Positions 2,368 through 23,512 of a stretch of 34,377 nucleotides of DNA are shown here, piece by piece. The stretch is from NCBI GenBank assembly GCA_020860755.1, contig JAJBTQ010000024.1, forward strand, positions 1 to 34,377, written 5' to 3'. Below the pieces are notes generated by a model that ran no database searches, had not been told where the DNA came from, and worked only from the letters and a program-made list of their open reading frames with translations. The stretch comes from Lachnospiraceae bacterium (GTDB lineage: Bacteria > Bacillota > Clostridia > Lachnospirales > Lachnospiraceae). The first letter of the stretch is position 1; each line of letters starts with the position of its first letter. The translations under genes and the position numbers were made by a program.

Positions 2368-3726
2368 ATGAGGAAAGTGAGAATTGGTGCCGGAGCCGGA
2401 TATGCCGGGGATCGGATTGAGCCTGCAATTGATCTTATGAAACAAGGCAATTTGGATTATATTATTTTTGAATGTCTGGCGGAAAGGACCATATCGATCG
2501 CACAGCAAAGAAAGCGGAATAATCCGGATTTGGGTTATAATGATCTCTTTGAGTATCGCATGGATCAGATTTTGGATGCGTGGAGAGATTTTCCGGTGCG
2601 TATTATTACGAATATGGGCGCTGCCAATCCGAAAGCTGCCGCTGAAAAATGCAGAGAGATGGCTGACCAGAAAGGCCTTGAAGACATCAAAATTTTTTAT
2701 GTTACCGGAGATGACATTACAAGCAGATTAGATGAGTATATGGATTTTATTACGATGGAGACCAAAGAGCCGCTTTTGGCGATTCACGGGGACATTATCT
2801 CTGCCAACGGCTATATAGGCTCGGATGGCATCGTAGAAGCGCTTAAAATGGGGGCTGACATTGTGATCACGGGACGCGTCGCTGACCCGGCGTTGACATT
2901 AGCTCCCTTGATTTATGAATTCGGTTGGAGTATGAATGACTATACCCGATTGGGGCGTGGCATTCTCGCTGGCCATCTTTTGGAGTGCGCCGGTCAGGTG
3001 ACAGGCGGATATTATGCAGACCCTGGGTTTAAGGAGGTACCTGATCTGTGGAATTTGGGATTTCCGATAGCGGAGGTGGATGAGGATGGAGTCTGTACCA
3101 TTTCTAAATTGGAATCTGCCGGGGGAGCAGTTTTGGAAGATATCGTAAAAGAGCAGATTTTGTATGAGATTCAAGATCCGGAAAATTACTTTACGCCGGA
3201 TGTTGTCGCGGACTTTTCTCAGGTCAAAGTGGAGCAGACCGGAAAAAACCAGGTGACCATAACCGGGATCGATGGCAAGGCACCGAATGGATATTTTAAA
3301 ACCAGCGTAGGGTATCATGATTGTTTTATTGGCGAAGGGCAGATCAGTTATGGCGGCTCCAATGCCTTGCAAAAAGCTGAAATGGCACGGGATATTCTGG
3401 AGCATCGCTTCGCCATCACACAGTTGGAGTTTGAAGAGATCCGATATGATTATATCGGCATAAACTCTCTGTTTGGGGACAAGATTTCCCGCAGCATATC
3501 AAGCAAATTAAATCCTTCTGAAGAAAGTGTTGAAGTAAGGCTTCGGGTTGCTGCCCGGACACGGGATTTTTACACAGCTGAAAGAGTCGGCGGGGAAGTA
3601 GAAGCATTATATACCAACGGCCCCTGTGGAGGCGGTGGAGTAGAAAAGAGTGTCAAAGATGTTATTGGCATTGCATCCATCCTTATTCCGGCAGCTCATT
3701 TTTTAGTTGCGGCCGTGCCGGTATAA
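2368..3726 (+). CDS. AtuA-family protein (DUF1446)
   Basis: This 452-aa protein has the N-terminal GAGAGYAGDR signature and overall pattern of the acyclic terpene utilization AtuA family (DUF1446, Pfam PF07287). Members occur in citronellol/geraniol catabolism in Pseudomonas, but the reaction they catalyse is not established as far as I know. The RBS is GCAGGAGG, 7-8 bases before ATG. The next gene encodes the small AtuA-related module that, in the Pseudomonas-type proteins I recall, is fused to the C terminus. Here the protein is therefore split over two genes, probably as subunits of one complex. The third gene encodes a C-C hydrolase-family protein, so a terpene role is doubtful here and catabolism of an aromatic or polyketide-like compound is equally plausible. 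Confidence 0.85.
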   Translation: MRKVRIGAGAGYAGDRIEPAIDLMKQGNLDYIIFECLAERTISIAQQRKRNNPDLGYNDLFEYRMDQILDAWRDFPVRIITNMGAANPKAAAEKCREMADQKGLEDIKIFYVTGDDITSRLDEYMDFITMETKEPLLAIHGDIISANGYIGSDGIVEALKMGADIVITGRVADPALTLAPLIYEFGWSMNDYTRLGRGILAGHLLECAGQVTGGYYADPGFKEVPDLWNLGFPIAEVDEDGVCTISKLESAGGAVLEDIVKEQILYEIQDPENYFTPDVVADFSQVKVEQTGKNQVTITGIDGKAPNGYFKTSVGYHDCFIGEGQISYGGSNALQKAEMARDILEHRFAITQLEFEEIRYDYIGINSLFGDKISRSISSKLNPSEESVEVRLRVAARTRDFYTAERVGGEVEALYTNGPCGGGGVEKSVKDVIGIASILIPAAHFLVAAVPV

Positions 3727-3773
3727 GAGATATTGTAAACGATGAGAGGACGTATTTTGATAAGGAGGCGCAT

Positions 3774-4073
3774 ATGAAACTGAAAGAAATTGCTCATTCG
3801 AGAACAGGAGATAAAGGGAATATTTCAGTGATCTCCGTCATCGCGTATAAAGCAGAAGATTATGGCAGATTGTGCAGCCAAGTGACTGAGGAGAGAGTCA
3901 GAGACTATTTTTCGGAGATTGTAAAGGGGAACGTCACGCGCTATGAACTGCCTGGTATCTTTGCACTGAATTTTGTGATGGAAGATGCGCTAGGAGGCGG
4001 CGTAACGAGGTCGCTTGCAATTGATAAGCACGGGAAAACCCTGGGCTGCGCACTGCTTGAGATGGAAATTTAA
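3774..4073 (+). CDS. AtuA-related small protein
   Basis: This 99-aa protein begins MKLKEIAHSRTGDKGN. The SRTGDKGN block and the GGGVTRSLAIDKHGK segment are typical of the ferredoxin-fold-like module found at the end of fused AtuA proteins. It sits 47 bases after the AtuA-family gene and has an excellent AAGGAGG site 8 bases before ATG. The likely role is a partner subunit of the upstream AtuA protein. There are no Cys residues suited to an iron-sulfur cluster, so the 'ferredoxin' label refers to fold only. Confidence 0.8.
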   Translation: MKLKEIAHSRTGDKGNISVISVIAYKAEDYGRLCSQVTEERVRDYFSEIVKGNVTRYELPGIFALNFVMEDALGGGVTRSLAIDKHGKTLGCALLEMEI

Positions 4074-4119
4074 GGCGGAGCAGATCCGGTAGAAAACTAT
4101 ATAAATGAGGGTATAGGAT

Positions 4120-4941
4120 ATGAATGAATATAGCAGAGTCCCTGTTGCAGAAGAGGAAAAAAACCGCAGTTATTATAAGTACTTTATGCGAGAACTCAAA
4201 GATATTCCGGAGGTGAAACAAAAGGTTCTGGAACATCCTTTACTGCCGGAGGGAGACGGCTTGGAGCCGGAAGACAGAAATAAAATTTTTGAGCCGGGAA
4301 CCCTGCCGGATGAAATGGGTGTTTCGAAAATGAAGTCGGGGGGATATTGCTTTGCCAATCATACAAAATTTCCGGAGGCTAACGGAGAAATGCTCCAGTG
4401 GTGGTTTGCCTGGCATCCCTTGGAATGTCTGAGATATTCTATTTGGGATCCGCGTGACCATTATGAGGTGGCCGTTTCCGATAAAGACAGAAAAAAGCTG
4501 TTGGATCCGCAGGTGTCAAACCTTGAGAAATGTCAGAACGTACAGCATATGAACAAAGAGTCTGTCCTGCTCGGAACAGATCCCATTCAGGTGAACTTAT
4601 CTTTTAAAAAGCCGTCAGATATGGGGTTTGAAGAACAGTGGATCGGAACGGAAAAGTGCTCGTTTTTCCTTTGCGGAAATGTGATAAAACCAGAGGGAGA
4701 CGGCTTGCCGATTGTTCTTATGCATACAGCCCGGGATTTAGAGGATGGCTGTGAACTGCGCAGCAGGATATGGGTGGGGTACCAGATTGTCAACGGAGAG
4801 GTATGCTGTGTGGCCCCTGAAAATTTTGAACTGTCAGAAGAACAGCTTCGCAGCCAGCTCCAGCATCATTTTTTCGAATTTACCAATTTGGCAGAAATAT
4901 TGCCGGCTATATATGCGGAAGAAAAAGATCACTGGGAGTAA
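4120..4941 (+). CDS. DAPG hydrolase / phloretin hydrolase family protein
   Basis: At 273 aa this matches the size of PhlG-type 2,4-diacetylphloroglucinol hydrolases and of phloretin hydrolase from Eubacterium ramulus, zinc-dependent enzymes that cleave a C-C bond next to an aryl ketone. Visible family features are WWFAWHPLECLRYSIWDP with His99, the block MHTARDLEDGCELRSRIWVG with His202, and a C-terminal His249-xxx-Glu253 pair. From memory, these resemble the metal-binding His and HxxxE residues of PhlG. The RBS is weak to moderate (AGGAT region). As last gene of the AtuA operon it suggests degradation of a phenolic or acylated aromatic compound. The substrate cannot be read from sequence. 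Confidence 0.75.
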   Translation: MNEYSRVPVAEEEKNRSYYKYFMRELKDIPEVKQKVLEHPLLPEGDGLEPEDRNKIFEPGTLPDEMGVSKMKSGGYCFANHTKFPEANGEMLQWWFAWHPLECLRYSIWDPRDHYEVAVSDKDRKKLLDPQVSNLEKCQNVQHMNKESVLLGTDPIQVNLSFKKPSDMGFEEQWIGTEKCSFFLCGNVIKPEGDGLPIVLMHTARDLEDGCELRSRIWVGYQIVNGEVCCVAPENFELSEEQLRSQLQHHFFEFTNLAEILPAIYAEEKDHWE

Positions 4942-4983: not shown

Positions 4984-5012
4984 GTTACAATACAACATGA
5001 ATTGTCTACAAT
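4984..5012 (+). promoter_or_regulatory. Promoter of the sirtuin operon
   Basis: A -35 of GTTACA (4984-4989), a 17-bp spacer and a -10 of TACAAT (5007-5012) lie about 39 bases before the first start codon. Hexamers are imperfect but spacing is ideal. Confidence 0.5.
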
Positions 5013-5050: not shown

Positions 5051-5794
5051 ATGTTTGCACAAAATTCAAGTGGTAATAAGAAGGATAATCAGATTGTAAA
5101 ATTATACGATGCTTTGGAGGAGAGCGGTTTTTCCGTTGCGATCACCGGAGCGGGGATCTCGATCGCGGCCGGAGGAGTATCCTATGCGGGCATGGGAGCG
5201 CGCGGCGGTATAGGCATGATGGGGCGGAATCCTGAGAATATGTATAATGGGCTTTACCGGGTTTTCTTAAGCGCCGCGTTCGAGCACGGACCGACTGAGG
5301 CGCACAAGGCCCTTGCGCGATTGGAAGAGATGGGGAAATTACAGGGCATCATCACTACGAATGAGGACTGTATCCATACAATGGCCGGCTCCAAAAACGT
5401 GGCTGAGATCCAGGGCAGTTTTCAGATAAATACCTGCAACGACTGCGGGCATCGTGTCTACGACTATGAGATATGGAACCACGGAGAGATGCCAAGATGT
5501 CCGGAGTGCGGAGGTGTCCTGCTGCCGTACAATGTCTACAGCCATGTCGGACTGTGGGAAGAGGATGTGAAAAAAGCGCAGGAATGGATGAGCCAGGCGG
5601 ACCTGATCCTGATCATCGGCACATCGGGATATTTTGGATCGGTGTATTGGGATTACAGAAAACGAAATGCCAGGATCATTCAGATCAACCAGAAGCGGAC
5701 CCATTTTGACTCGATCGCCGAATTAAACATTCATCGGGACGCGGATCCGGTGTTTGAGGAATTGATGAAGCTGGAAGAAAGTGAGGAAAAATAA
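5051..5794 (+). CDS. Divergent Sir2-family protein lacking the catalytic His (SirTM-like)
   Basis: This 247-aa protein keeps the sirtuin core: GAGIS NAD-binding motif (33-37), TTNED with Asn104 and Asp106, a four-Cys zinc site (C129, C132, C150, C153), and GTS at 190-192. It lacks the canonical SGIPDFR segment, having SIAAGGVSYAGMG instead. The usual ELHGS catalytic motif reads EIQGS, so Gln121 replaces the catalytic His. As I recall, Gln here plus a TTN-x-D motif is characteristic of macrodomain-linked SirTM sirtuins, which ADP-ribosylate proteins and do not deacylate them. No macrodomain or GcvH-like gene is nearby. It leads a four-gene operon with only 2 bases before the next gene. AGGAG lies 13 bases from ATG, a long spacing. 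Ordinary deacetylation is unlikely; ADP-ribosyl transfer or NAD hydrolysis is inference. Confidence 0.85.
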   Translation: MFAQNSSGNKKDNQIVKLYDALEESGFSVAITGAGISIAAGGVSYAGMGARGGIGMMGRNPENMYNGLYRVFLSAAFEHGPTEAHKALARLEEMGKLQGIITTNEDCIHTMAGSKNVAEIQGSFQINTCNDCGHRVYDYEIWNHGEMPRCPECGGVLLPYNVYSHVGLWEEDVKKAQEWMSQADLILIIGTSGYFGSVYWDYRKRNARIIQINQKRTHFDSIAELNIHRDADPVFEELMKLEESEEK

Positions 5795-5796
5795 CG

Positions 5797-6483
5797 ATGA
5801 GTTCTTTTACCATACAGGGGAAGAAAGTAGATGTCTTGCCGGCCTCCGAGCCCGGAAGTCCCATAGTTTACCTGCATATGTTTGGCCGTGAAGGGGACAG
5901 GGTGTTTCAGGAATTACAAAATGAAAAGAGCCCGGATCTTACCCTGGTAGCCATCAGCAAATTGGATTGGAATCATGACATGGCGCCCTGGGAATGCCCG
6001 CCGCTTTCCAGAATGGATCAACCCTGCACCGGCGGGGCGGATGAGTATCTGGAGATGTTTATCCGGGAAATCCTGCCGGAAGCTGAAAAAGATATAGAGG
6101 GGGAGCCCGCGTGGCGAGGTATTTCCGGCTATTCTCTGGCCGGCTTATTTGCGGTGTATTCCATATATCGGACAGACCTCTTTTCCCGGGTTGCCACAAT
6201 GTCCGGTTCTCTGTGGTTTCCCGGGATCAAAGAATATATCTTTTCCCATGATCCGATGATCCGCCCGGATCATATGTATTTTTCGCTGGGGGATAAGGAG
6301 AGCAAATCCCGAAATTCTTATCTGAAAACCACGCAGGATAATACCGCGGAGATTCAGGCGTTTTATGCCGATCAGGGCATTGACTCGATATTTGTTCTGA
6401 ATCCGGGCAATCACTATGCCGGACCGGTAAAGCGGATGGCTGCCGGTATCGACTGGATCTTAAGGCGGGAAGGGACCGAATGA
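5797..6483 (+). CDS. Alpha/beta-hydrolase, esterase D family (IroE/BesA-like)
   Basis: This 228-aa protein has the nucleophile elbow GYSLAG with Ser113, followed by LFAVYSIYRTDLFSRVATMSGSLWF. That block is typical of the Esterase D family (PF00756), which includes siderophore esterases such as IroE and BesA. His206 in NPGNHYAG is the likely catalytic His, and the acid is probably in SLGDKES (D166 or E168). There is no signal peptide, so it is cytoplasmic. The start lies 2 bases after the sirtuin stop, and its own stop overlaps the start of the adenylation gene (ATGA), so translation is coupled. Siderophore hydrolysis is possible, but there are no siderophore synthesis or uptake genes here. 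Hydrolysis of an ester or amide made by the neighbours is the more economical guess. Confidence 0.8.
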   Translation: MSSFTIQGKKVDVLPASEPGSPIVYLHMFGREGDRVFQELQNEKSPDLTLVAISKLDWNHDMAPWECPPLSRMDQPCTGGADEYLEMFIREILPEAEKDIEGEPAWRGISGYSLAGLFAVYSIYRTDLFSRVATMSGSLWFPGIKEYIFSHDPMIRPDHMYFSLGDKESKSRNSYLKTTQDNTAEIQAFYADQGIDSIFVLNPGNHYAGPVKRMAAGIDWILRREGTE

Positions 6484-7985
6484 TCATGGATGCAATTTAT
6501 ACACTTTTTCAATCTGTGGTCGATTCTTATCCGGACGACCCGGCGATCATAGAAGATGACCGGGTGTTGACCTTTCAAGAGTTTTCCCATATGGTGGACC
6601 GGATCGCTTCCGGGTTTCCGGACGATATTCACAGTGTAGGCATTGTCATGCGCCATCGGGCAGAGATGATCGCCTCTATTTTTGCTGTGCTCAAATGCGG
6701 TGCCCGATATATCCCGGCAGAACCGGATTTTCCCACCGGACGGATCCGCGATATGATGACGGAAGCCGAGGTTGATTTTGTTCTGACCGAGCCCAGTTTT
6801 TTGTATAAACTGCAGGGATTTTCCACCAGGATGGCGGAAGCCGGATCCGGCGGAGGGGAGATGGCCGAAACAGACTGTGCGGAAGCGATAGATCCGGAAA
6901 GCCCCGCCTATGTTTTGTTTACGTCCGGGACAACGGGGCGCCCGAAAGGCGTCTGCGTTCGAAACCGCAATGTCTGCCATTATGTAAGAGCTTTTGAAAA
7001 CGAATTCCACCCCGGCCCCGGGGATGTTATGCTGCAGTATTCTGTCTGCTCGTTTGATATTTTTGTGGAGGAAGTGTTCGCCAGCCTGCTGAACGGAGCT
7101 GCTCTGGCAATCCCCTCGGATGCGGACAAAGAAAATGTTTTGGCGCTGATGTCCTTTGTCGCGAGGCATCAGGTAACTATCATATCCGGCTTTCCCTATC
7201 TGCTGGCCGAATTGAATCACCTGCCTGCGATCCCAGCCTCCCTGCGGCTTTTGATCAGCGGCGGTGACGTTTTGCGGGGGATCTATGTCGATAACCTGCT
7301 TTGTCAGGCGCAGGTTTATAATACCTACGGACCCTCTGAGACTACTGTCTGTGCGTCATATTACTGCTGCAATCAGGGAGGTGTCTTAGAGGATGGGACC
7401 TATCCCATCGGCCGGCCGGTCAAGGGAGTGGATATCCGCCTCCTGGATCAGTCCGGAAACGACGTTCCCGCCGGAGAGACCGGTGAGATCTGCATTTACG
7501 GTGATGGGGTATCCATGGGCTATATCGGAGACCACGAGGAGGAAAACCGGGCTTTTGTCACTCTGCCGGATGGCAGCGTTATGTACAGGAGCGGGGATCT
7601 GGGCTACTTTCTTCCGGACGGGAACCTGGCCTTTTTGCACCGGATGGATGACCAGATCATGATCTATGGCAAACGGGTGGAGACCGCAGAGGTGGAATCC
7701 CGGCTCTACCAGTGCAAAAACGTCCATCAGGCCGTGGTCCGGGCGATGGTCGATGACGAGGGGCTTTCTTATATGGTGGCCTATATCGTGCCCGCCGGGC
7801 CGAGCTTAAATATTTCCGGGATCAAAGAAGAGCTGGCGGAGAACCTTCCTTCGTTTATGATCCCCGAATTTTTTGTGGAAATCTCAAGTGTTCCCGTAAA
7901 TCCAAACGGAAAAACTGATGTAAAAAAATTGCCGATCGTAAGAAAAGGAGGCAGCCATCATGGAAATTCGGATACAGAAAGCTGA
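6480..7985 (+). CDS. Stand-alone amino-acid-type adenylation enzyme (ANL superfamily)
   Basis: This 501-aa protein has a complete set of NRPS-type adenylation motifs: A3 FTSGTTGRPKG (147-157), A4 region SFDIFVEEVF with Asp193 in the place that binds an alpha-amino group, A5 YGPSETT (283-289), A7 YRSGD (369-373), A8 HRMDDQIMIYGKR, and A10 NPNGKTD with catalytic Lys478. It has no carrier or condensation domain, and no separate carrier protein gene lies in the window. It should activate an amino acid as aminoacyl-AMP; the acceptor is unknown. The ATG overlaps the upstream stop (ATGA). Its last codons cover the ribosome site of the GNAT gene. Asp193 argues for an amino acid over a fatty or aryl acid. 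Confidence 0.85.
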   Translation: MIMDAIYTLFQSVVDSYPDDPAIIEDDRVLTFQEFSHMVDRIASGFPDDIHSVGIVMRHRAEMIASIFAVLKCGARYIPAEPDFPTGRIRDMMTEAEVDFVLTEPSFLYKLQGFSTRMAEAGSGGGEMAETDCAEAIDPESPAYVLFTSGTTGRPKGVCVRNRNVCHYVRAFENEFHPGPGDVMLQYSVCSFDIFVEEVFASLLNGAALAIPSDADKENVLALMSFVARHQVTIISGFPYLLAELNHLPAIPASLRLLISGGDVLRGIYVDNLLCQAQVYNTYGPSETTVCASYYCCNQGGVLEDGTYPIGRPVKGVDIRLLDQSGNDVPAGETGEICIYGDGVSMGYIGDHEEENRAFVTLPDGSVMYRSGDLGYFLPDGNLAFLHRMDDQIMIYGKRVETAEVESRLYQCKNVHQAVVRAMVDDEGLSYMVAYIVPAGPSLNISGIKEELAENLPSFMIPEFFVEISSVPVNPNGKTDVKKLPIVRKGGSHHGNSDTES

Positions 7986-8424
7986 CCTTACAGACCTGGA
8001 TCTTTTAATGCAGTGGCGGATGGAAGTGCTGCATGAAGTGTTCCCTTCTTCGGAATATTTCTATCCGGAGGGACTTGAAGAGGAGAACCGATCCTATTAT
8101 GAGAAGGCATTGGCGGCCGGAACGCATATCGCCTGTTTCGCCCATGCGGACGGGGAGATCGTAGGCTGCGGCGGCATGTGCCTGTATCAGGAAATGCCTT
8201 CGCCGGACAACCCCGGCGGCTGGTGTGCTTATATTATGAATATCTATTGCCGGGCTGCATACCGGGAACAGGGGGTGGGCAGTTCCATCATTCACTGGTT
8301 GTCGGAGCAGGCAAAGGAGCGGGATATTACAAAGATTTACCTGGAGACATCTGAGAGCGGGAGGGGCTTTTATGACAAGATCGGCTTTTTGGAAATGCCG
8401 GACATGATGATCATGCCGGGATGA
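7960..8424 (+). CDS. GNAT-family N-acetyltransferase
   Basis: This 154-aa single-domain GNAT has its acetyl-CoA-binding motif at REQGVGSS, followed by SSIIHWLSEQAKERDITKIYLETSESGRGFYDKIGF, which covers motifs A and B. The ATG has a strong AAGGAGG site that lies inside the end of the adenylation gene, giving a 26-nt overlap and tight coupling. It is the last gene of the sirtuin operon and is followed by a terminator. The substrate is unknown; an amine on the product of the adenylation enzyme, or a protein lysine, are both possible. Confidence 0.85.
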   Translation: MEIRIQKADLTDLDLLMQWRMEVLHEVFPSSEYFYPEGLEEENRSYYEKALAAGTHIACFAHADGEIVGCGGMCLYQEMPSPDNPGGWCAYIMNIYCRAAYREQGVGSSIIHWLSEQAKERDITKIYLETSESGRGFYDKIGFLEMPDMMIMPG

Positions 8425-8447
8425 TGTCTTGGCAAAAATAATATTTG

Positions 8448-8483
8448 AGAGCTTGCAGACAGCGCGTTTGCAAGCTCTTTTTT
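8448..8483 (+). terminator. Terminator of the sirtuin operon
   Basis: A stem of about 10 bp pairs GAGCTTGCA (8449-8457) with TGCAAGCTC (8469-8477), has an 11-nt loop, and is followed by six T residues. Confidence 0.9.
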
Positions 8484-8603: not shown

Positions 8604-8673
8604 CATATTACCATAATATCGTGTAAAACTCGTCGGTTTTTTTAATGCTTTGCACTACGAAAGGAAAAACGAT

Positions 8674-11253
8674 ATGAAAAGAGTGAGGAAAAAAGCACTG
8701 GCATTCTTTTTGGCTGTTTCTGTCGTGTTTACCATAGGCGGGATGACAGCGTTTGCGGAGGAAGATACCTTATTCAGTGAGGGATCAGTAATGGATGAGA
8801 GCAAATGTGAAGATGCGGATCTGTTTTTAGAGGAGGCCGGTGAAGACCCGGATCTGTCACCGGATGAGGTATGCGAAGATCCGGAGCTGCCTGAGACAGG
8901 GGAGGATTCTTCGGGAGAGCTCACTGCGCAGGCTGCGCCGATCAGTGTCGAAGCCGGAGAACCGGATGAGGATGTGATCGTTTTGGATAATGAGGAAGGG
9001 ATCGTTTTGGATAATGAGGATCCGAAAGAGGAGGATGATTACGGTATCCAGCTGCTGGCAGGCGAGACCTATACGATTGAGGTGACAGATACAAAAAGTA
9101 TTACAGGGACTTCTGCCAATTACAGCAATTCCTGGTCCAGTTCGAATACGGATGTGGCAACGGTCAGCGGTACCGGAAGTACAGCAGTAGTGACCGGACG
9201 CTCGCCGGGTACAGTGACCATTACGCATAGATATCAAACCTCTTATTTTGCCACAAGTCTTACCGAGACCTGGACGGTCATAGTCAGCAATACCGTTTCC
9301 GTGTGTGTTTATGTCTCCAGGGCCGATATTTCCTATGCGATGCTGGATATCCTCGGGATCGATCCGCATACCATAGATTCCTACGGGTATTTTCCGGTGG
9401 GCATCGTCTACCTCGACGCTTCGTATATTACCGCGGATAAATGGGATGCGGCAAATACTGAGAAGGCGCCGCTTATCAACAGTGAAGAGGATTGGCAGCT
9501 GCTGCTTAGGGATCTGTCCAACATTGATACCAGTGAAGCTGTTTTCCGAGATGAATATAAGGCAAATGCAGGGAACAATATCGGTCAATATCTCTCTGCC
9601 GCGGCAGATTATATCGGACACGAGGGCGGTTCCGGCTATACAGCTCTTTTCCGAAATGAGAGCGAGGACGAGTATACGATTGAAAACACGAAGTTTCATC
9701 TGGATCTGTTGTTCCATACCAACAAGGTCACTTATGTCTATGGAGACAACGGATATTCAACCGGGGATGCCATTGACGGTCGGGAAGCAACAGATTCCTT
9801 GCCGTATATTCGTTATACAGATGTGGTTCCGATCGAGGCTTCCTCTTTTCTCCCGGAAGGCTTCGTATTCGAAGGTTACTATAAGGATGAGCATTTCCTG
9901 GAACCGTGGGATGGCACGACATCTCTGAAAGAGGATTTGATCGTATATGTCAAGGTAAGTCGTGTGATCAGCATAGATGTTGAGAAGATCTGGAGGGACG
10001 GCGGCAACGAGGCCGGAGACCGCCCCGAAGCGGTCACAGTCGTGTTACTGGCAGATGGGGAAGAGGTAGTCGGAGAGTACGGCAGCCTGACCTTATGCGA
10101 AGCGTGTGGCTGGAGCGGAGTCTTCGAGGATCTGTATGCCGAGGATGAGAAGGGATCAGAGATCGCCTATACAGTCGAGGAGACGGAAGTGCCGGACGGC
10201 TACAGCAGTGAGATGAGCGGTGATCAGGAAAGCGGATATTGCATTACCAATACCAAGCTTACGTCACTTGTCGTTACAAAGGCATGGAACGATGCAAGCG
10301 ATCATGACGGAATCCGGCCGGACGACCTTGCGATCACTCTTACAAGCAATGGCGATGCGACGGAGCAGCGTTTGACACTGCGGGGTGACGGAGACAGCTG
10401 GAGCGGAATTTTTAATGATCTTCCCGCTTATGATGAGAACGATGATAAGATCATCTATTCCGCCACAGAAGAGGTGCCGGATGGCTATACCGCCGTGATC
10501 CGTACACTCAGAGAGGGGAACGTTCTGATCACCAATACCCATAATTCGCTGCTCGTTTCCGACCTGACCATCACCAAAGTGTGGGACGATGCGGATGATC
10601 AGGATGGCATACGGCCGTCTTCCATTACGGTTGAGCTCCAGCATGACGGCCAGACAGTGACGGACGTCTATGGAACCCCATGGACGGCGGAACTGACAGC
10701 GGAAGATATAGATGAGGATGGAAACTGGACGATCGATGTCTCGGATCATCCGGTCTATGAGATGGAGGGTGGTCTGGATATCGGCTACACACTGCATGAG
10801 GATGATGTCGCTGCAGGCTATGAGACCACTGATGTCGATGTTACGATCTGTTCGGAAGAGGTGGAAGGAGCGACGGTGTACACCGGTACGGTGACCTTGA
10901 CCAACAGTCACGAGCCGGACCCGGAGGGTGAGCCGGATCCTCAAGACGCCGGCGACAAAGAAGACAATAAGGAAGACAGCGGTAATGTCGGAGACGACGA
11001 CGGCGGCAATGACAGCAACCGCAGCAACGGTCACGGCGGCAATGCCGGAGACGGTGGACATGGAGGAAAAGGCGGCAAGCACGGATATAACGGCGACGGC
11101 GGCGCTGATACTGCAGAGGTCACTAATCTTTCCGATGCACCGGCCTCCAAAACCTCCGATACCAATGCACCATACCTGTATCTGTTCCTTATTATTCCGG
11201 CAGGCGTCGCGATTGTGATAGTCGGTGTGCGCAGACGCGCGGCGGGACAGTGA
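8674..11253 (+). CDS. Secreted Cna-B-repeat surface protein
   Basis: I place the start at ATG 8674 (859 aa), which follows GAAAGGAAA; an upstream TTG at 8650 in the same frame lacks a ribosome site. A signal peptide (MKRVRKKALAFFLAVSVVF...) ends near AFA/EE. An acidic low-complexity stretch follows, then a Big2-like segment (~125-205), a unique region, and three Cna-B domains starting near residues 432, 528 and 629, each with a (V/I)xKxW strand and a final (I/T)TN(T/S). A Gly/Asn/Asp-rich linker leads to a C-terminal hydrophobic helix and an RRR tail. The helix is preceded by SKTSDTN, not LPXTG, so sortase anchoring is uncertain. Such proteins act as adhesins or pilus-like stalks. The gene is monocistronic. 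Confidence 0.85.
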   Translation: MKRVRKKALAFFLAVSVVFTIGGMTAFAEEDTLFSEGSVMDESKCEDADLFLEEAGEDPDLSPDEVCEDPELPETGEDSSGELTAQAAPISVEAGEPDEDVIVLDNEEGIVLDNEDPKEEDDYGIQLLAGETYTIEVTDTKSITGTSANYSNSWSSSNTDVATVSGTGSTAVVTGRSPGTVTITHRYQTSYFATSLTETWTVIVSNTVSVCVYVSRADISYAMLDILGIDPHTIDSYGYFPVGIVYLDASYITADKWDAANTEKAPLINSEEDWQLLLRDLSNIDTSEAVFRDEYKANAGNNIGQYLSAAADYIGHEGGSGYTALFRNESEDEYTIENTKFHLDLLFHTNKVTYVYGDNGYSTGDAIDGREATDSLPYIRYTDVVPIEASSFLPEGFVFEGYYKDEHFLEPWDGTTSLKEDLIVYVKVSRVISIDVEKIWRDGGNEAGDRPEAVTVVLLADGEEVVGEYGSLTLCEACGWSGVFEDLYAEDEKGSEIAYTVEETEVPDGYSSEMSGDQESGYCITNTKLTSLVVTKAWNDASDHDGIRPDDLAITLTSNGDATEQRLTLRGDGDSWSGIFNDLPAYDENDDKIIYSATEEVPDGYTAVIRTLREGNVLITNTHNSLLVSDLTITKVWDDADDQDGIRPSSITVELQHDGQTVTDVYGTPWTAELTAEDIDEDGNWTIDVSDHPVYEMEGGLDIGYTLHEDDVAAGYETTDVDVTICSEEVEGATVYTGTVTLTNSHEPDPEGEPDPQDAGDKEDNKEDSGNVGDDDGGNDSNRSNGHGGNAGDGGHGGKGGKHGYNGDGGADTAEVTNLSDAPASKTSDTNAPYLYLFLIIPAGVAIVIVGVRRRAAGQ
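8976..9020 (+). repeat. 24-bp tandem duplication inside the surface protein gene
   Basis: A 21-bp identical block occurs at 8976-8996 and 9000-9020, a period of 24 bp. It keeps frame and duplicates the peptide (I)VLDNEE/D in the acidic N-terminal region. Confidence 0.8.
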
Positions 11254-17385: not shown

Positions 17386-18786
17386 ATGGCAAGTTTATCA
17401 CACACGATGCAGAGAAAGGCATTCAGTGCGGCGATCGATGTCGCCTTAAGACGGCTGAACAAAGATCGCGAAAAGGGATTGCTGCAGATCGTAGATCTTG
17501 CTGAGCGCTTTATGGGAGACAACTTTAAGGCCGAGTCCTATGAGGCTGTGAGGGCGATGATCAAGGATCCCGACAACAAATGGATGCACTATGTGAACCG
17601 CATGCTGGATGAGGTAGATCCTCACGTGGCGAAGATGACCGCATTAAACCTTGGATTTGAGGCCGCATTCTACGGCACAAAGGTGATCCGCGACAAGCGG
17701 AAAGAGTACGAATGCAACATTCCGTGGCTGATCCTGATGGATCCCACGAGCGCATGCAATATGCACTGCACCGGCTGCTGGGCTGCCGAGTACGGGCACA
17801 AATTAAACCTTACCTATGACGAGATGGACAGCATCATCACGCAGGGCAAGGAGATCGGTGTGTACTTCTATATGTTTACCGGCGGTGAGCCGCTTGTCCG
17901 CAAGGATGACCTCGTCAAGCTGGCCGAAAAGCACAACGACTGTGAGTTCCACAGTTTTACGAACGGTACTCTGATCGATGAGGAGCTTTGCAAGAAGCTG
18001 CGGGAGATCGGCAACTTCTCGTTCTCCCTGTCTCTTGAGGGATTTGAAGATGCCAACGACGGACGACGGGGCGACGGAGCGTTCCAGAGGACACTTGATT
18101 CGATGGATCTGCTTAAACAGTACGGGCTGCTCTTTGGAACTTCCGTGTGCTATACAAGAAAAAATATGGCGGCGGTCACTTCCGATGAGTTCTTTGATCT
18201 GATGATCGAGCACGGCTGCCGTTATGCGTGGTACTTCCACTATATGCCGGTGGGGAACGAGGCCGATGTCGACCTGATGCCTACCATGGAACAGCGCAAA
18301 TACATCCACGACCGGCTCCGCGAGATCCGCGGCTTTGAGGGCGGCAAGGAGATCATGCTGCTCGACTTCCAGAACGACGGTGAGTTCGTGGGCGGCTGCA
18401 TTGCCGGCGGACGGAACTACTTCCATATTAATGCCAACGGCGACGCCGAGCCCTGCGTGTTCATCCACTACTCAGGCGCGAACATTCGCGAGAAGACATT
18501 GCTGGAATGTCTGCAGCAGCCGCTGTTTATGGCCTACCGGGAAGGACAGCCGTTCAATGAGAATCATCTCCGTCCCTGCCCGATGCTGGAGAATCCGGAG
18601 AGGCTTCGGGAAATGGTGGAAAAGACCGGAGCACACTCCACGGACCTGCAGTCTCCCGAGAGCGTGGAGCACCTCACAGACAAGTGTGTGGACTATGCGC
18701 AAGACTGGGCACCGAATGCAGAGGAGCTCTGGGAAAACGGACATTTTACGAGAACCGGTTATACCAATTTCAAGGATACCATCTAG
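17386..18786 (+). CDS. Radical SAM protein, first of a tandem pair
   Basis: This 466-aa protein has an N-terminal helical region of ~105 residues, then a radical SAM core with Cys124, Cys128 and Cys131 (CNMHCTGC) for the 4Fe-4S cluster and FTGGEP (164-169) for SAM binding. After the core, further Cys in GGCIAGG, EPCVFIHYS and RPCPMLENP look like a SPASM/Twitch-type auxiliary cluster site. The ATG follows AAAGGAG. It is the first gene of an operon with a close paralogue 24 bases downstream, then an acyltransferase. I know similar proteins are frequent in Lachnospiraceae, but no substrate. With its neighbours, lipid or acyl-chain modification is a guess. Confidence 0.85.
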   Translation: MASLSHTMQRKAFSAAIDVALRRLNKDREKGLLQIVDLAERFMGDNFKAESYEAVRAMIKDPDNKWMHYVNRMLDEVDPHVAKMTALNLGFEAAFYGTKVIRDKRKEYECNIPWLILMDPTSACNMHCTGCWAAEYGHKLNLTYDEMDSIITQGKEIGVYFYMFTGGEPLVRKDDLVKLAEKHNDCEFHSFTNGTLIDEELCKKLREIGNFSFSLSLEGFEDANDGRRGDGAFQRTLDSMDLLKQYGLLFGTSVCYTRKNMAAVTSDEFFDLMIEHGCRYAWYFHYMPVGNEADVDLMPTMEQRKYIHDRLREIRGFEGGKEIMLLDFQNDGEFVGGCIAGGRNYFHINANGDAEPCVFIHYSGANIREKTLLECLQQPLFMAYREGQPFNENHLRPCPMLENPERLREMVEKTGAHSTDLQSPESVEHLTDKCVDYAQDWAPNAEELWENGHFTRTGYTNFKDTI

Positions 18787-18810
18787 GGAGTTTACATAGA
18801 GGAGGGAACA

Positions 18811-20235
18811 ATGGCAGATTTAAAACATACCACAGCGAGAAAATCATTTGAAGTCGCTTTTAACGGTGTCTACCGCTATATCAACAGAAATAAGGAAGAG
18901 AACCTTGTCAAGCTCATGCATATGGCGCGCAGAGTTGCCGGAAAGAACTTCCCCGATAAATTCTGGGACAACGCAGATCAGGTTCTCTCGGACCCGGAGA
19001 ACAACTGGACACAGCAGATCTACCACGCGATGGAGACGCTGCATCCGAACCTGATCAAGACTCATGTCATGAACTTGGGGTTTGAGTCCGGACTGACGGG
19101 ATTCAAGCAAGTGAAGGAGAACCGCGAAAAGTACGGCTGTAACGTGCCGTGGGTCATCCTGATGGATCCGACAAGTGCGTGCAATCTGCGCTGCGTCGGC
19201 TGCTGGGCCGCTGAGTACGGCCATAACTTAAACCTGACAAACGAAGAACTCGATGATATCATCACACAGGCGAAGGAACTGGGTATCCACTTCTTCATCT
19301 TTACAGGCGGCGAGCCGATGGTCCGCAAAAAAGACCTCCTTTGGCTTGCGGAGAAGCACAACGACTGCGCGTTCCATCTCTTCACAAACGGGACACTCTT
19401 CGACGAGGAGTTCTGCAAGGAAGTACAAAGGCTCGGGAACCTTTCCTTTGCACTCTCCATCGAAGGATATGAGGAGACGAACGATGACCGCCGCGGTGAC
19501 GGCGTGTTTGAGAAGATCATGAACGCGATGGATCTGATGCACGAATACGGTCTGATCTATGGGGCATCCATCTGCTATACGAGCAAAAATTACAAGGTCG
19601 TCACTTCCGACGAGTTCCTGCAGATGCTTGTTGACCATGGTGCGATCCTGTCCTGGTTCTTCCACTATATGCCGGTTGGCAAGGATGCGAGCACGGATCT
19701 GCTCCTGACACCGGAACAGCGTGAGTACATGGTCAAGCGTGTCCGCTATGTCCGTAGTCAGTACTGCCCGATCAAGCTGTTTACCATGGATTTCCAGAAC
19801 GACGCGCAGTTTGTCGGCGGATGTATTGCCGGCGGCAAGGCCTATATGCATATCAACGCGAACGGAGATGTGGAGCCCTGCGTGTTCATCCACTACTCGG
19901 ATGCGAACATTCGGGACATGACACTGCTCGAGTGCCTGCAGCAGCCTCTGTTCATGCAGTATCACGACAACATGCCGTTCAATGACAATATGTTCCAGCC
20001 GTGTCCGATGCTGGAGAATCCGGACAGAATTCAGACGATGGTACACAATACAGAGGCGCACTCCACCGATATGGTGTGCGAGGAGCCGGTGGACGATCTG
20101 GTCGCCAAGACGTTCCCCTATGCCGAGCACTGGGCAGCCACTGCCGAGAAGCTCTGGGATGAGGTGCAGGATGGTACCTTAAATGTCGCAGAGGCAGCCG
20201 AAACCGGCGCGGAGGCTGAGGTCGAAAGCGTCTGA
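18811..20235 (+). CDS. Radical SAM protein, second of a tandem pair
   Basis: This 474-aa paralogue of the preceding gene aligns without gaps over the first ~150 residues: CNLRCVGC again gives Cys124, Cys128 and Cys131, and FTGGEP is conserved. The C-terminal GGCIAGG, EPCVFIHYS and QPCPMLENP blocks are also shared, so both copies look active. The N-terminal helical region diverges more than the core. It adds a short Glu/Ala-rich tail (AEAAETGAEAEVESV). The RBS GAGGAGGG is strong. Tandem retention of two intact copies suggests a heteromer or two related steps. Confidence 0.85.
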   Translation: MADLKHTTARKSFEVAFNGVYRYINRNKEENLVKLMHMARRVAGKNFPDKFWDNADQVLSDPENNWTQQIYHAMETLHPNLIKTHVMNLGFESGLTGFKQVKENREKYGCNVPWVILMDPTSACNLRCVGCWAAEYGHNLNLTNEELDDIITQAKELGIHFFIFTGGEPMVRKKDLLWLAEKHNDCAFHLFTNGTLFDEEFCKEVQRLGNLSFALSIEGYEETNDDRRGDGVFEKIMNAMDLMHEYGLIYGASICYTSKNYKVVTSDEFLQMLVDHGAILSWFFHYMPVGKDASTDLLLTPEQREYMVKRVRYVRSQYCPIKLFTMDFQNDAQFVGGCIAGGKAYMHINANGDVEPCVFIHYSDANIRDMTLLECLQQPLFMQYHDNMPFNDNMFQPCPMLENPDRIQTMVHNTEAHSTDMVCEEPVDDLVAKTFPYAEHWAATAEKLWDEVQDGTLNVAEAAETGAEAEVESV

Positions 20236-20253
20236 TCTTAAGAATGACATGAT

Positions 20254-20287
20254 CTCCCCGGCAGACTCAGTCCGCCGGGGAGTTTCA
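20254..20287 (+). terminator. GC-rich hairpin after the radical SAM pair (attenuator or terminator)
   Basis: CTCCCCGGC (20254-20262) pairs with GCCGGGGAG (20274-20282) across an 11-nt loop. Only three T residues follow, so readthrough to the acyltransferase gene is likely. It could lower expression of the distal genes or protect the upstream mRNA. Confidence 0.6.
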
Positions 20288-20303
20288 AATTACGGAACTT
20301 TTT

Positions 20304-21779
20304 ATGAGCGATAAAGATAGAGAAAAACAAGTAAAGAGCCAATATAAAGCGAGAAAAAAGCTGATTCGTGCTCAACAAAAGGAACAAAAGCGCCAGCTCA
20401 AGCTGGAATACAAAGAGGAAAAGCAGGGCCGGGGTACAAAGAGACAGAGGCTGGAAAAGGCTTATTTTCGCCAAAAAGTGGACAGCAGCGGCAAGGTTTA
20501 TGACGGTTCCGGTGAGATCCGCTGGGATAAGCTCGACAATGCAGCCCATCTGTTTCCCGCAATCGCCGGCGAAGGTTTAAGCAATGTATATCGGATCTCG
20601 GTGTATCTTGACGAGGACATTCTGCCGGATGTGCTTCGGGAGGCTTTAGACATCGTGCTTCCAAAGTTTCCTGTCTTTAACTGCAGGCTTCGCCAGGGCA
20701 TGTTCTGGTACTACTTTGAGGAGAACGGCAAAGAGATCCCTCCGGTCGTGGAGGAGAACACCTATCCCTGCCAGTACATTGAGGAGAACCGGAACCGGAA
20801 CTATCTGTTCCGTGTGAGTTATTATAAAAAGAGAATCAACTTGGAGGCGTTCCACGTGTTGACGGATGGAACCGGCGCACTCTACTTTTTAAAGGAGCTG
20901 ACTTATCAGTATCTGCGTCTGGTCCACCCGGACCTGGGAGAGCGCTTAGGAGACGGCTTAAGCAGTGAGACTTCCCTGAACATGGAGGACAGCTTTGTAA
21001 AAAACTATAAAAAGAGCAGTTTTTCCAGGGGATATCAGAGCTTCCGGGCATATATCCTTAAGGGATCCATGTTCCCGACGGGCAAGATGGGCGTCCTGCA
21101 CGGACATATGCCGGTGGAAGAGGTCAAACAGGCGGCAAAACAGTATGATGCCACAGTGAATGAGTATATGGTCTCTCTATTTGCCTGGTGTATTTACCAG
21201 AGCTATTTAAAGGGCATGCCGTCCAAACATCCGGTCTCGGTGGCGGTCCCGGTCAACCTGCGGCCCTACTTCCAGTCTGTGACAGCCAAGAACTTTTTCG
21301 TCATGGTGACGGCGGTTTTCCGGCCCGAAAAAGAGGGCCAGACGTTTGCGGAAGTGATCGGGGCGGTGAAACAATCCTTACGGGAGCAGGAGACAAAAGA
21401 ACACTTGGAGACCGTGCTCTCATACAACGTGACCGGAGAGCAGATCATGTTCCTTCGCACTATCCCGCTTATCTTTAAAAATCCGGGATTGAGGGGGATT
21501 TATAATCTGCACGCGAAAGCAAACACGACGACGGTGACCAATCTCGGACAGATCACGGTCGACCCGGAATACCGGGAGTATGTCCGCCGGTTTGATGCGC
21601 TGCTTTCCAGGTCCAGGGGACAGAACCTGAAAATGACAATGTCTACCTATGAGGGAACACTGTCCGCGACCATCACATCCGTAATGCGGGACGTGGAGCT
21701 GCAGCGCGCGTTTTACCGCTGCCTTGCGTCAGAAGGGATTTCCGTGACGTTAGACAGCAACGGAGTATATTATGAGTGA
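20304..21779 (+). CDS. CoA-dependent acyltransferase / alcohol acetyltransferase-like protein
   Basis: This 491-aa protein carries the HxxxDG motif of the condensation/BAHD/WS-DGAT acyltransferase superfamily: FHVLTDGTGA with His184, Asp188 and Gly189. SVAVPVNLRPYF in the second half is also typical. The first ~60 residues are extremely basic and probably coiled coil, unlike the usual family start. Such enzymes transfer an acyl group from CoA to an alcohol, amine or lipid. The ATG has only a weak GGAA element; the GGGGAG of the hairpin is too far away. The next gene begins 16 bases after the stop, and the hydrolase follows, so the cluster could both add and remove an acyl group. Confidence 0.8.
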   Translation: MSDKDREKQVKSQYKARKKLIRAQQKEQKRQLKLEYKEEKQGRGTKRQRLEKAYFRQKVDSSGKVYDGSGEIRWDKLDNAAHLFPAIAGEGLSNVYRISVYLDEDILPDVLREALDIVLPKFPVFNCRLRQGMFWYYFEENGKEIPPVVEENTYPCQYIEENRNRNYLFRVSYYKKRINLEAFHVLTDGTGALYFLKELTYQYLRLVHPDLGERLGDGLSSETSLNMEDSFVKNYKKSSFSRGYQSFRAYILKGSMFPTGKMGVLHGHMPVEEVKQAAKQYDATVNEYMVSLFAWCIYQSYLKGMPSKHPVSVAVPVNLRPYFQSVTAKNFFVMVTAVFRPEKEGQTFAEVIGAVKQSLREQETKEHLETVLSYNVTGEQIMFLRTIPLIFKNPGLRGIYNLHAKANTTTVTNLGQITVDPEYREYVRRFDALLSRSRGQNLKMTMSTYEGTLSATITSVMRDVELQRAFYRCLASEGISVTLDSNGVYYE

Positions 21780-21794
21780 CAGGGAGTTATCGCG

Positions 21795-22469
21795 ATGAGC
21801 AAATGTAAAAATTGTGGAGTTACAATTCAGGATCCCGTACAGGTCTGTCCGCTGTGCAGCTGTGTTTTGGAGCAGGATGAGGGAGACCGGACAGAGATGC
21901 TCTACCCTTACGTCCACGCGGAAGAGGGGATCAAAAAAATGCAGAGGGCGCTGGGCATCTACGTGATCGCAGCCATTGCGGCGGAGGTGATCCTGTGCAT
22001 GATAGACTATGCCATTCGCGGGCCGCTCGGATGGGTGATCTTAATCGGTGTCTTTCTCGCATACGGATATATCACGCTGAAGGTATCGATTGAGATGCAC
22101 ACCGGATACCGACTGATCGTGTTCATCCAGGCTGTATTGGGCGTAGCGGTCCTGTTTGCCATTGACGTAGTCAGCGGCTTTCGGGGCTGGTCACTCACCT
22201 ATGTGATCCCGGCCGCCTGTATGCTGATCGATCTGGGTATTGTTGTGATGATGATCGTGAACATTCGGGACTGGCAGAGCTACATCCCGTTTCAGCTTGT
22301 GATCATCGCATTTTCCGTGCTTCCGTTTGCGCTGTATCCATTCGGCCTTGTCACACATCTGATCGTGCCGATGATCGGCCTTACCGTGGCAGTGATGGCC
22401 TTTGTCGGAACGATGACCATAGGAGGCCGGCGTGCCAGAGAAGAATTGTACCGGAGATTTCATATATAA
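21795..22469 (+). CDS. Zinc-ribbon membrane protein (DUF6320-like)
   Basis: This 224-aa protein has an N-terminal zinc ribbon, CKNCG...CPLCSC (two CxxC pairs), followed by about six hydrophobic segments from residue ~55 to 210 and a short basic tail. I associate this layout, next to an alcohol acetyltransferase-like gene, with the uncharacterised DUF6320 family, from memory. The RBS is GGGAG about 10 bases before ATG. It may anchor or regulate the cytoplasmic enzymes of the cluster at the membrane; no activity is evident. Confidence 0.75.
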   Translation: MSKCKNCGVTIQDPVQVCPLCSCVLEQDEGDRTEMLYPYVHAEEGIKKMQRALGIYVIAAIAAEVILCMIDYAIRGPLGWVILIGVFLAYGYITLKVSIEMHTGYRLIVFIQAVLGVAVLFAIDVVSGFRGWSLTYVIPAACMLIDLGIVVMMIVNIRDWQSYIPFQLVIIAFSVLPFALYPFGLVTHLIVPMIGLTVAVMAFVGTMTIGGRRAREELYRRFHI

Positions 22470-22513
22470 ATGTCTGTTGACGGATGGCCGCCTGCAGAAA
22501 AGGAGAATCGATC

Positions 22514-23512
22514 ATGCCGCAAATTGAGCAGAGCGCACAGGGGAAAGTCCTCCGAGAGATCATCGCGCGGGTGCACGCAGACAACCGGATCGGGCGCAGG
22601 ATCCAATCGGGAGAGATGCGCAAAAACATGGCGGAGGCAGAGCCGGAGTGGAAGGTTCCGGCCGGCTATACGCTGTCTGTCATACGACAGCCGAAGTTTG
22701 ACATGGAACTTTTGCAGCCTGCGATCCCGAGTAAAAAATTTATTATTCTGCAGCTTCACGGCGGAGCCTATGTGGGCAAGCTGATCAACATCTATCGCAG
22801 CTTTGCCGGACTTTACAGCGAATTGGGACGAGGGGTATCTGTGCTGACGCCTGACTTTCGCGTTGCACCGGAAGATCCCTATCCGGCAGCGTTTGAGGAC
22901 GTGATCACGTCCTATTGCTGGCTGCTTTCACAGGGATGGTCGGAAAGTCAGATTATTTTGGCGGGGGATTCCGCAGGCGGCGGGCTCGCCATGGCTCTCT
23001 GCATGTATTTAAAAAATCATGGCAAGCCGCTTCCGGCAGGGATCATTGCGATGTCGCCCTGGACGGATCTGACGCTTTCCGGACGGTCCATCCGAAAGAA
23101 CTATCACAAAGATCCGGTCTTCGGGAACACGAAGGACAGCCTGGTGTTTAATCGGGACTATGTGAAGGGAGCGGATGCCTCCAACCCATACATCTCGCCC
23201 CTCTTCGGAGATTTTTCCGGATTTCCGCCGATGCTGATCCAGGTGGGTGGAGATGAGATGATCCTAAGCGACTCAACCCGCGTGGCAAAAAAGGCAAGGC
23301 GTGCCGGGGTCAGGGTGCGTTTAAGTATCTATGACGGCATGTTCCATATGTTCCAGATGGCTCTCCTTATGGTTCCGGAATCCAAGAACGCCTGGAAGGA
23401 AGTGGGAAGATTTTTGGAGATCGTGATGCGGGAGAAGCAGCCGGCCATTAAGCTGACAAAGCGGGAAAAGCGAAAGCTGATCCGAGAGTTGAAAAAAGAG
23501 AGTAAGAGATAA
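22514..23512 (+). CDS. Alpha/beta-hydrolase of the hormone-sensitive-lipase family
   Basis: With the ATG at 22514, supported by AAAGGAG 9 bases before it, the protein is 332 aa; an in-frame ATG at 22484 adds ten residues but has no ribosome site. It shows HGGAY (oxyanion hole, 82-86), GDSAGG with nucleophile Ser153, GGDEMILSD with Asp247 and FH with His278, the complete triad of family IV esterases. The C terminus is a Lys/Arg-rich helix. It is the last gene of the radical SAM cluster and is followed by a terminator. It probably hydrolyses a short acyl ester, perhaps one made by the acyltransferase two genes upstream. Confidence 0.9.
   Translation: MPQIEQSAQGKVLREIIARVHADNRIGRRIQSGEMRKNMAEAEPEWKVPAGYTLSVIRQPKFDMELLQPAIPSKKFIILQLHGGAYVGKLINIYRSFAGLYSELGRGVSVLTPDFRVAPEDPYPAAFEDVITSYCWLLSQGWSESQIILAGDSAGGGLAMALCMYLKNHGKPLPAGIIAMSPWTDLTLSGRSIRKNYHKDPVFGNTKDSLVFNRDYVKGADASNPYISPLFGDFSGFPPMLIQVGGDEMILSDSTRVAKKARRAGVRVRLSIYDGMFHMFQMALLMVPESKNAWKEVGRFLEIVMREKQPAIKLTKREKRKLIRELKKESKR

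Follow-up and report, generated by a model that had tools for sequence, protein, structure and literature searches.

The 34,377-nucleotide stretch of DNA analysed here (called the window at its full length) is contig JAJBTQ010000024.1 of the Lachnospiraceae bacterium assembly GCA_020860755.1, i.e., contig C17 of a 1.72-Mb assembly (genome G000) that is 79% complete. It carries an operon of four genes, all on the forward strand, which encode a sirtuin (S), an esterase-type hydrolase (E), an adenylation enzyme (A) and a GNAT acetyltransferase (N); in some related loci, these are accompanied by a microbial PARG (P). Loci examined for comparison are numbered with an L, and genomes with a G. The features of the operon are the following:

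4984..5012, + strand: weak sigma-70-like promoter, GTTACA-17-TACAAT, matching the consensus at 9/12 positions
5051..5794, + strand: QG-type sirtuin, 247 amino acids (aa); Pfam SIR2 PF02146, 9.2e-21
5797..6483, + strand: alpha/beta hydrolase E with a siderophore-esterase fold, 228 aa; Pfam Esterase PF00756, 8.2e-7
6480..7985, + strand: stand-alone adenylation enzyme A, 501 aa; AMP-binding, 2.7e-68, plus AMP-binding_C; TIGR01733
7960..8424, + strand: GNAT acetyltransferase N, 154 aa; Pfam Acetyltransf_1 PF00583, 2.7e-15
8447..8479, + strand: intrinsic terminator, a 14-pair stem followed by a T run

The sirtuin and E genes are separated by a 2-base gap, E and A share an ATGA overlap, and A and N overlap by 26 bases. 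The first-pass annotation of the window had described four coupled genes with these positions and spacings, which the open reading frames (ORFs) bear out, and Pfam agrees with its naming of the sirtuin, esterase, adenylation enzyme and GNAT families. It had also proposed a shared promoter and terminator. The terminator is well founded, as its hairpin (-21.8 kcal/mol, z -4.9) was equalled in stability by none of the shuffled sequences (0/200). A single promoter for all four genes is plausible, given the weak consensus match and site counts near the level of shuffled sequence: between positions 4000 and 9500, promoter-like sites number 11 against 7.3 +/- 2.4 in shuffles, which is not clearly above, and terminator-like sites 6 against 6.2 +/- 3.0.

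The core unit of the operon is a three-gene cassette, E-A-N, to which the sirtuin is an accessory. Species-level genomes were scanned with an alignment of A, and the best 80 of 138 confirmed relatives were kept as loci; linkage was counted within 6.5 kb of A, and contig ends affect these counts (L045, for example, ends 171 bases after A). N lies near A in 75 of the 80 loci, E in 64, and both in 59. The 58 loci in which all three proteins are near full length (window included) fall into two gene orders, E-A-N (28 loci) and A-N-E (30 loci), and the proteins have co-evolved: Mantel r is 0.93 for A-E, 0.81 for A-N and 0.85 for E-N across these 58 loci, the highest of 500 permutations reaching 0.15 (gap medians in this analysis count only pairs from 60 bases overlapping to 400 bases apart). 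Chance adjacency of the gene set was rejected in view of the recurrence of E-A-N in two orders with co-evolution, together with the recurring linkage to sirtuin and PARG described below. Of the joint function that had been proposed for the operon, the idea of a set for carrier-less amino-acid activation, acetylation and hydrolysis, joined to an NAD-dependent transferase, is supported, but the four-gene unit gives way to the core E-A-N. The proposal was to be given up if the genes were rarely together or their order unique to this strain. They are not rarely together (E and N in 59/80 loci; sirtuin and/or PARG in 23/80), but the contiguous order S-E-A-N was seen in the window alone among the loci examined, so that this reservation applies in part. 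Searches of the open-licence text of PubMed Central (PMC) listed no description of the gene set. In four Monoglobus metagenome-assembled genomes (MAGs; L064, L068, L070, L079), A-N-E is followed by genes for a PLD/DUF3427 helicase, identified by Pfam in L064, and a NUDIX-like protein (assigned by reading).

A is an adenylation enzyme of the type found in nonribosomal peptide synthetases (NRPSs): it exceeds the curated cut-off of the NRPS adenylation-domain model TIGR01733 (324.5 bits vs. 317.4), and the core motifs A3, A5, A7, A8 and A10 are all present. The A10 lysine, K478 in the window protein, is kept in 84/84 complete rows of the alignment, and the specificity code, DIESIGTVCK, is identical in the same 84 rows (86 rows in total, two of which are incomplete at these sites). 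This code equals that of bacB A1, DAESIGSVCK, at 8/10 positions; other published lysine codes are those of Pls-A (DAESIGTVVK) and Rv0101 A1 (DIEDVGSVVK) (excerpt of PMC12195549, Table 5). For the ornithine enzyme PosA, code position 3 is a Glu that touches the side-chain amine and position 2 tunes the chain length, and the code of a fungal relative, DIESIGTVTK, is listed among signatures with unassigned substrate (excerpts of PMC10522769). Because of the resemblance to published lysine codes, lysine or ornithine is the likely substrate class of A.

A carrier or condensation domain is absent from the A protein, which contains AMP-binding domains only (Pfam). When the surroundings of A in the 80 loci were searched with two carrier and four multidomain queries, only A itself was matched (phmmer, E 1e-3; a weak test, as each query is a single sequence). 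A might instead load a carrier protein encoded elsewhere, within a carrier-dependent NRPS- or Dlt-like pathway acting in trans. This would be consistent with the score against the NRPS model and with three matches to the carrier family PF00550 in the window genome, the first of which adjoins PlsX-type and RNase III-type genes, the second fatty-acid-type genes, while the third lies within a 1122-residue frame (neighbours named by reading); a DltC-like protein, likewise named by reading, adjoins another ligase. However, these carriers belong to fatty-acid-type or Dlt-like surroundings or to a multidomain frame, and none was matched near A, which makes loading in trans distinctly unlikely.

The two smaller enzymes of the cassette have confidently predicted structures. 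The AlphaFold2 (AF2) model of E has a predicted local distance difference test (pLDDT) score of 95.7, and its best fold matches in the PDB are EstA, an IroE-like protein and EstB, with IroE, Fes and BES also matched (Foldseek E 5.5e-12 to 3.7e-8 for the siderophore esterases IroE, Fes and EstA-EstB). Residues S113, E168 and H206, which are invariant in 29/29 sequences, are the probable catalytic triad. For N, the AF2 model reaches pLDDT 91.3, and the nearest structure is 3mgd with acetyl-CoA; the acetyl-CoA motif RxxGxG is present at residues 102-107, and the family is further marked by the motifs GCGG (78/78) and EMPSPDN (74/78).

The sirtuin had been called SirTM-like, which is true of its motif but not of its clade and partner. 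In an alignment to archaeal Sir2, Q121 (codon 5411-5413) occupies the place of the classical catalytic histidine, so that Q121-G122 replaces HG, and N104, D106 and the four cysteines 129, 132, 150 and 153 are retained (invariant columns of 15 sirtuins). QG is found in 51/53 sirtuin rows of at least 150 residues, with one EG, one gap and no HG (L125 and L213, labelled S by profile, are HG sirtuins and were excluded from the QG counts). SirTMs likewise have QG in place of the catalytic HG, and are described as ADP-ribosylating enzymes without deacylase activity (excerpts of PMC4518038). A tree was built from 113 sirtuins, taking operon sirtuins with lengths of 215-280 aa and SirTM candidates (E < 1e-3) with lengths of 260-345 aa. 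In this tree, however, the 19 Zn-Macro-linked SirTMs form one group (100/100) with no window-type sirtuin inside. The window-type sirtuins form a group of their own (93/76) beside HG sirtuins, in which the window protein groups with L029, L031 and L117 (100/98). Since this tree is unrooted and has three groups, independent loss of the histidine, i.e., convergence on QG, cannot be claimed. A macrodomain was not found in the window operon. Of the features that define class M (SirTM), the window sirtuin thus has the QG motif, but neither the Zn-macrodomain linkage nor a place in the SirTM group, and membership of this family was rejected on clade and partner.

In the Acs/AcuA-Pat/CobB paradigm, an AMP-forming enzyme is reversibly acetylated by the combined action of a GNAT and a sirtuin. 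The operon might be imagined to work in the same way, with N acetylating A at its A10 lysine and the sirtuin deacetylating that residue, and indeed a GNAT gene adjoins that of an AMP-forming enzyme with an invariant A10 lysine (84/84 complete rows). However, the catalytic histidine is replaced in 52/52 sirtuin rows that show the site and, by analogy with the QG SirTMs and their lack of deacylase activity (excerpts of PMC4518038), the window sirtuin would not be expected to act as a deacylase. Moreover, 53/75 N-bearing loci have no sirtuin or PARG nearby, N retains EMPSPDN in 74/78 sequences, and the esterase would be left without a role. Reversible acetylation by sirtuin and GNAT is therefore disfavoured and appears very unlikely.

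The linkage of the sirtuin and PARG to the cassette is partial and recurrent. A sirtuin is found in 21/80 A-loci, PARG in 18/80, either in 23/80 and both in 16/80, PARG thus accompanying the sirtuin in 16/21 sirtuin-bearing loci. In 21/80 loci, a sirtuin or PARG gene on the same strand overlaps A or precedes it by less than 110 bases; in L029, the sirtuin is divergent, and in L031 it lies 5.6 kb upstream of A. Seven loci share the most frequent order of the linked kind, S-S-S-P-A-N-E. In the genus mate G001, a sirtuin fragment follows A-N-E where the contig ends; in G006, S-S is joined by a partial N and by E; and the order in G173 is P-S-S-A-N-E. The linked PARG is of the microbial type (PF10021/TIGR02452, DUF2263), as in L061 (PF10021, 2.5e-27; TIGR02452, 8.9e-47, over the cut-off), and it has the GG..QEE motif of this type, QEEDLCR being present in 19/19 rows, the copy in L118 reading QEEALCR. 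In the A tree, from which proteins below 450 aa were dropped and to which L122 was added, the sirtuin/PARG label changes at least four times, and linkage occurs in both deep A groups. The window A groups with L015, L029, L031 and L051 (100/97), so that the grouping of the window with L029 and L031 is common to the sirtuin and A trees. Among 397 genomes of the family, A is present in 12 (E <= 1e-150) and the sirtuin in seven (E <= 1e-30), or six after removal of the HG-type G378; A and a QG sirtuin occur together in two, against 0.18 expected if they were independent, and at one locus both times. The sirtuin might still lack any joint function with E-A-N, stress modules simply gathering in one transcription unit, and both the QG sirtuin/PARG modules without cassette (27 fetched loci) and the cassettes without S or P (57/80) would fit this explanation. 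The at least four changes with linkage in both deep A groups, and the grouping shared by the two trees, argue against it and render it improbable.

Two other contigs of the window genome carry relatives of these genes. On contig C9 (L117:6334-11915), an operon consists of S, Abhydrolase_5, LPG_synthase_C (the C-domain of phosphatidylglycerol lysyltransferase; PF09924, 2.2e-52), flavodoxin, S, PARG and S, and because of it PARG is available in trans in this genome. The Abhydrolase_5/LPG_synthase_C pair is found in 4/27 fetched cassette-free QG-sirtuin loci, namely L117, L206, L210 (on the opposite strand and about 3 kb away) and L211; the PF09924 assignment was checked in L117 and L206. L119 retains the pair as a fused remnant, with an LPG match below the Pfam cut-off, and in L093 the pair lies downstream of S-S-P-A-N-E. 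The cassette and the LPG pair alike are presumed to provide a source of transferable lysine or ornithine together with an alpha/beta hydrolase, a parallel from few and mostly congeneric genomes that is the main hint of a shared theme. Order-wide, sirtuins of the window's group occur in 10/392 genomes (E <= 1e-55), and in 6/7 newly fetched loci two or three sirtuins adjoin PARG, accompanied by a nitroreductase gene and, in most cases, a TetR-like one; a short Cys-rich protein beside S-S-P has no Pfam match. A broader scheme can be drawn from these arrangements, namely an NAD-gated conjugation of lysine or ornithine in gut Bacillota and Actinomycetota under redox stress: a carrier-less ligase, or in parallel an LPG_synthase_C lysyltransferase, would load a lipid or metabolite, an alpha/beta hydrolase would remove the load, and the separate QG sirtuins and PARG would add and remove ADP-ribose on the same target. 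We regard this generalisation as doubtful. On contig C30 (L015:7345-11125), a second A, which carries the same code at about 75% identity, lies between a MetY-like pyridoxal phosphate (PLP) enzyme gene (Cys_Met_Meta_PP), which it overlaps, and a cysK-like gene (PALP). A mycothiol-like low-molecular-weight thiol pathway, as this metY-A-cysK order might imply, was set aside, because the A code, compared with cysteine codes, is of the diamino-acid type.

The record hosts of the cassette include Lachnospiraceae, Oscillospiraceae, Erysipelotrichaceae, several families of the Coriobacteriia type and one Muribaculaceae MAG. Records of Blautia (L022) and Faecalibacterium (L021, L026) share a stretch of 4,022 bases that includes the cassette, at 99.55% identity, which implies recent movement across genera, and E-A-N with the region behind it shows 99.55-99.75% identity among the Blautia and Faecalibacterium records L020, L021, L022, L024 and L026.

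A role in stress (redox, electrophile or DNA damage) is suggested by the gene families around the cassette. In the 80 loci, those within 5 kb of A include nitroreductase clusters (11 and 4), the radical SAM (rSAM) mobile pair B (10), Rrf2 and MarR regulators (5 each), flavodoxin (4) and the Shango genes SngA (4) and SngB/SngC (3), one member of each having been checked. The TetR, Rrf2, MarR and nitroreductase clusters were named by reading, with one member of each checked against Pfam (TetR just below the cut-off, the others over it). An HxlR regulator is present within 6.5 kb of A in 21/80 loci, in 16 of them divergent and upstream, and that of L019 matches the redox regulators RrpA/RrpB below their cut-offs. 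MutM adjoins the cassette in L037 and L049; in L037, an HhH-GPD glycosylase is found there too. In L037:5330-12300, L049:2117-8567 and L215:3916-8525, the cassette is interleaved with genes for MarR, nitroreductase, DUF1848, rSAM mobile pair B, MutM and HhH-GPD, a region that is possibly a DNA-damage island. Shango SngABC lies immediately upstream of the cassette in L019:1436-6857 (PADLOC), and the same sequence clusters occur in L041 and L043.

Such neighbours raise the question of a mobile resistance or defence cassette, in which E-A-N would chemically inactivate toxins, antibiotics or genotoxins that enter the cell, with the sirtuin and PARG forming part of the same defence context. The near-identity of the cassette stretch in Blautia and Faecalibacterium, the Shango genes at three loci, rSAM mobile pair B in 10/80 and the MutM and HhH-GPD genes are all compatible with this idea. 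However, none of E, A, N, PARG and HxlR matched a PADLOC model at E 1e-3, and the window sirtuin gave a match of 8.8e-4 over 27 residues; with nothing useful for the core genes, an anti-phage defence system was rejected as a candidate. Relatives of A were not found in plasmids (E 1e-100), phages (E 1e-60) or viral contigs, and a ligase that activates lysine would be unusual for resistance, so that a resistance or defence cassette seems unlikely.

In the window itself, a run of AtuA, AtuA ferredoxin-like and 2,4-diacetylphloroglucinol (DAPG)-hydrolase-like genes (2368-4941) ends 109 bases before the sirtuin, and a large surface protein with one Big_2 and three Cna_B stretches is encoded directly 3' of the operon terminator (8650-11253). 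Further downstream (17386-23512) comes a tandem pair of similarly long radical SAM proteins; the next ORF has no Pfam match, and DUF6320 and Abhydrolase_3 proteins follow.

From gene content, conservation, motifs, trees and predicted folds, we infer a stress-linked enzyme set by which a basic amino acid, lysine or ornithine, is conjugated and the conjugate turned over, under the optional control of an NAD-dependent ADP-ribosylation switch, and we assign this reading a probability of roughly 0.4. In the first step, A, whose motifs are intact, would activate lysine or ornithine, as its code suggests, in the form of the aminoacyl-AMP. Having no carrier domain, A might hand the aminoacyl group on to CoA, a lipid or a soluble acceptor. 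N, judging by its acetyl-CoA motif, could then acetylate an amine of the product, or could take the aminoacyl-CoA as donor, and E, with its esterase fold and putative triad, might cleave an ester or thioester form, thereby reversing or editing the conjugate. Finally, the QG sirtuin might use NAD+ to mono-ADP-ribosylate a pathway component or the acceptor, by analogy with the SirTM/Zn-Macro/GcvH-L/LplA2 system, which likewise couples an adenylate-forming ligase to a QG sirtuin and a macrodomain. The microbial PARG, whose gene belongs to the operon itself in relatives and lies on contig C9 in the window genome, would reverse the modification.

Several points speak against this interpretation. 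The 57/80 cassette loci without sirtuin or PARG nearby indicate that the ADP-ribosylation switch is not essential, L060 and L088 lie inside the sirtuin-linked A group and yet have neither gene, and PARG is absent from the window operon itself. The metY-A-cysK paralogue (L015), which is the nearest row to the window A in the tree, has no E or N and is left unexplained by the model. The cases with the LPG pair come mostly from one genus (L117, L206, L210 and L211 are all of this genus), and 23/27 cassette-free QG-sirtuin loci have no intact pair, many of them being cut by contig ends. The stress role is deduced from neighbour families only. What emerges is a separate group of QG sirtuins that has its own hydrolase, the microbial PARG, and in many loci is linked with a defined enzymatic cassette. 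This coupling points directly to candidate sirtuin targets and gives bacterial PARG a testable function, the physiological roles of this protein in bacteria having been called unknown (excerpt of PMC11833690). Since the cassette moves between common human gut genera, any product would also be of interest to gut metabolomics.

Among known systems, the siderophore esterases IroE, Fes and EstA-EstB have the fold and the Ser-Glu-His residues in common with E, which differs from them in its size of about 230 aa, an identity of 14-20% and a neighbourhood in which no siderophore genes were noticed. A resembles the lysine- or ornithine-type adenylation domains of NRPSs (bacitracin BacB A1, epsilon-poly-lysine synthetase, PosA) in its core motifs and its diamino-acid-type code, but it stands alone, without a carrier, condensation or membrane domain. 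As in the Acs/AcuA-Pat/CobB system, an AMP-forming enzyme, a GNAT and a sirtuin occur together; in the window, however, the sirtuin lacks the deacylase histidine, an esterase is present, and a PARG is added in relatives. A further parallel is provided by the SirTM/Zn-Macro/GcvH-L/LplA2 operon, as described in excerpts of PMC4518038: both have a QG sirtuin, an adenylate-forming ligase in the operon and a stress-type context, and both can include a macrodomain-type ADP-ribosyl hydrolase, which on the side of the window is linked only in its relatives. Compared with that operon, the sirtuin belongs to a separate group, the microbial PARG takes the place of Zn-Macro and the NRPS-type A that of LplA2, and the window operon has no GcvH-L but adds a GNAT and a hydrolase with a siderophore-esterase fold.

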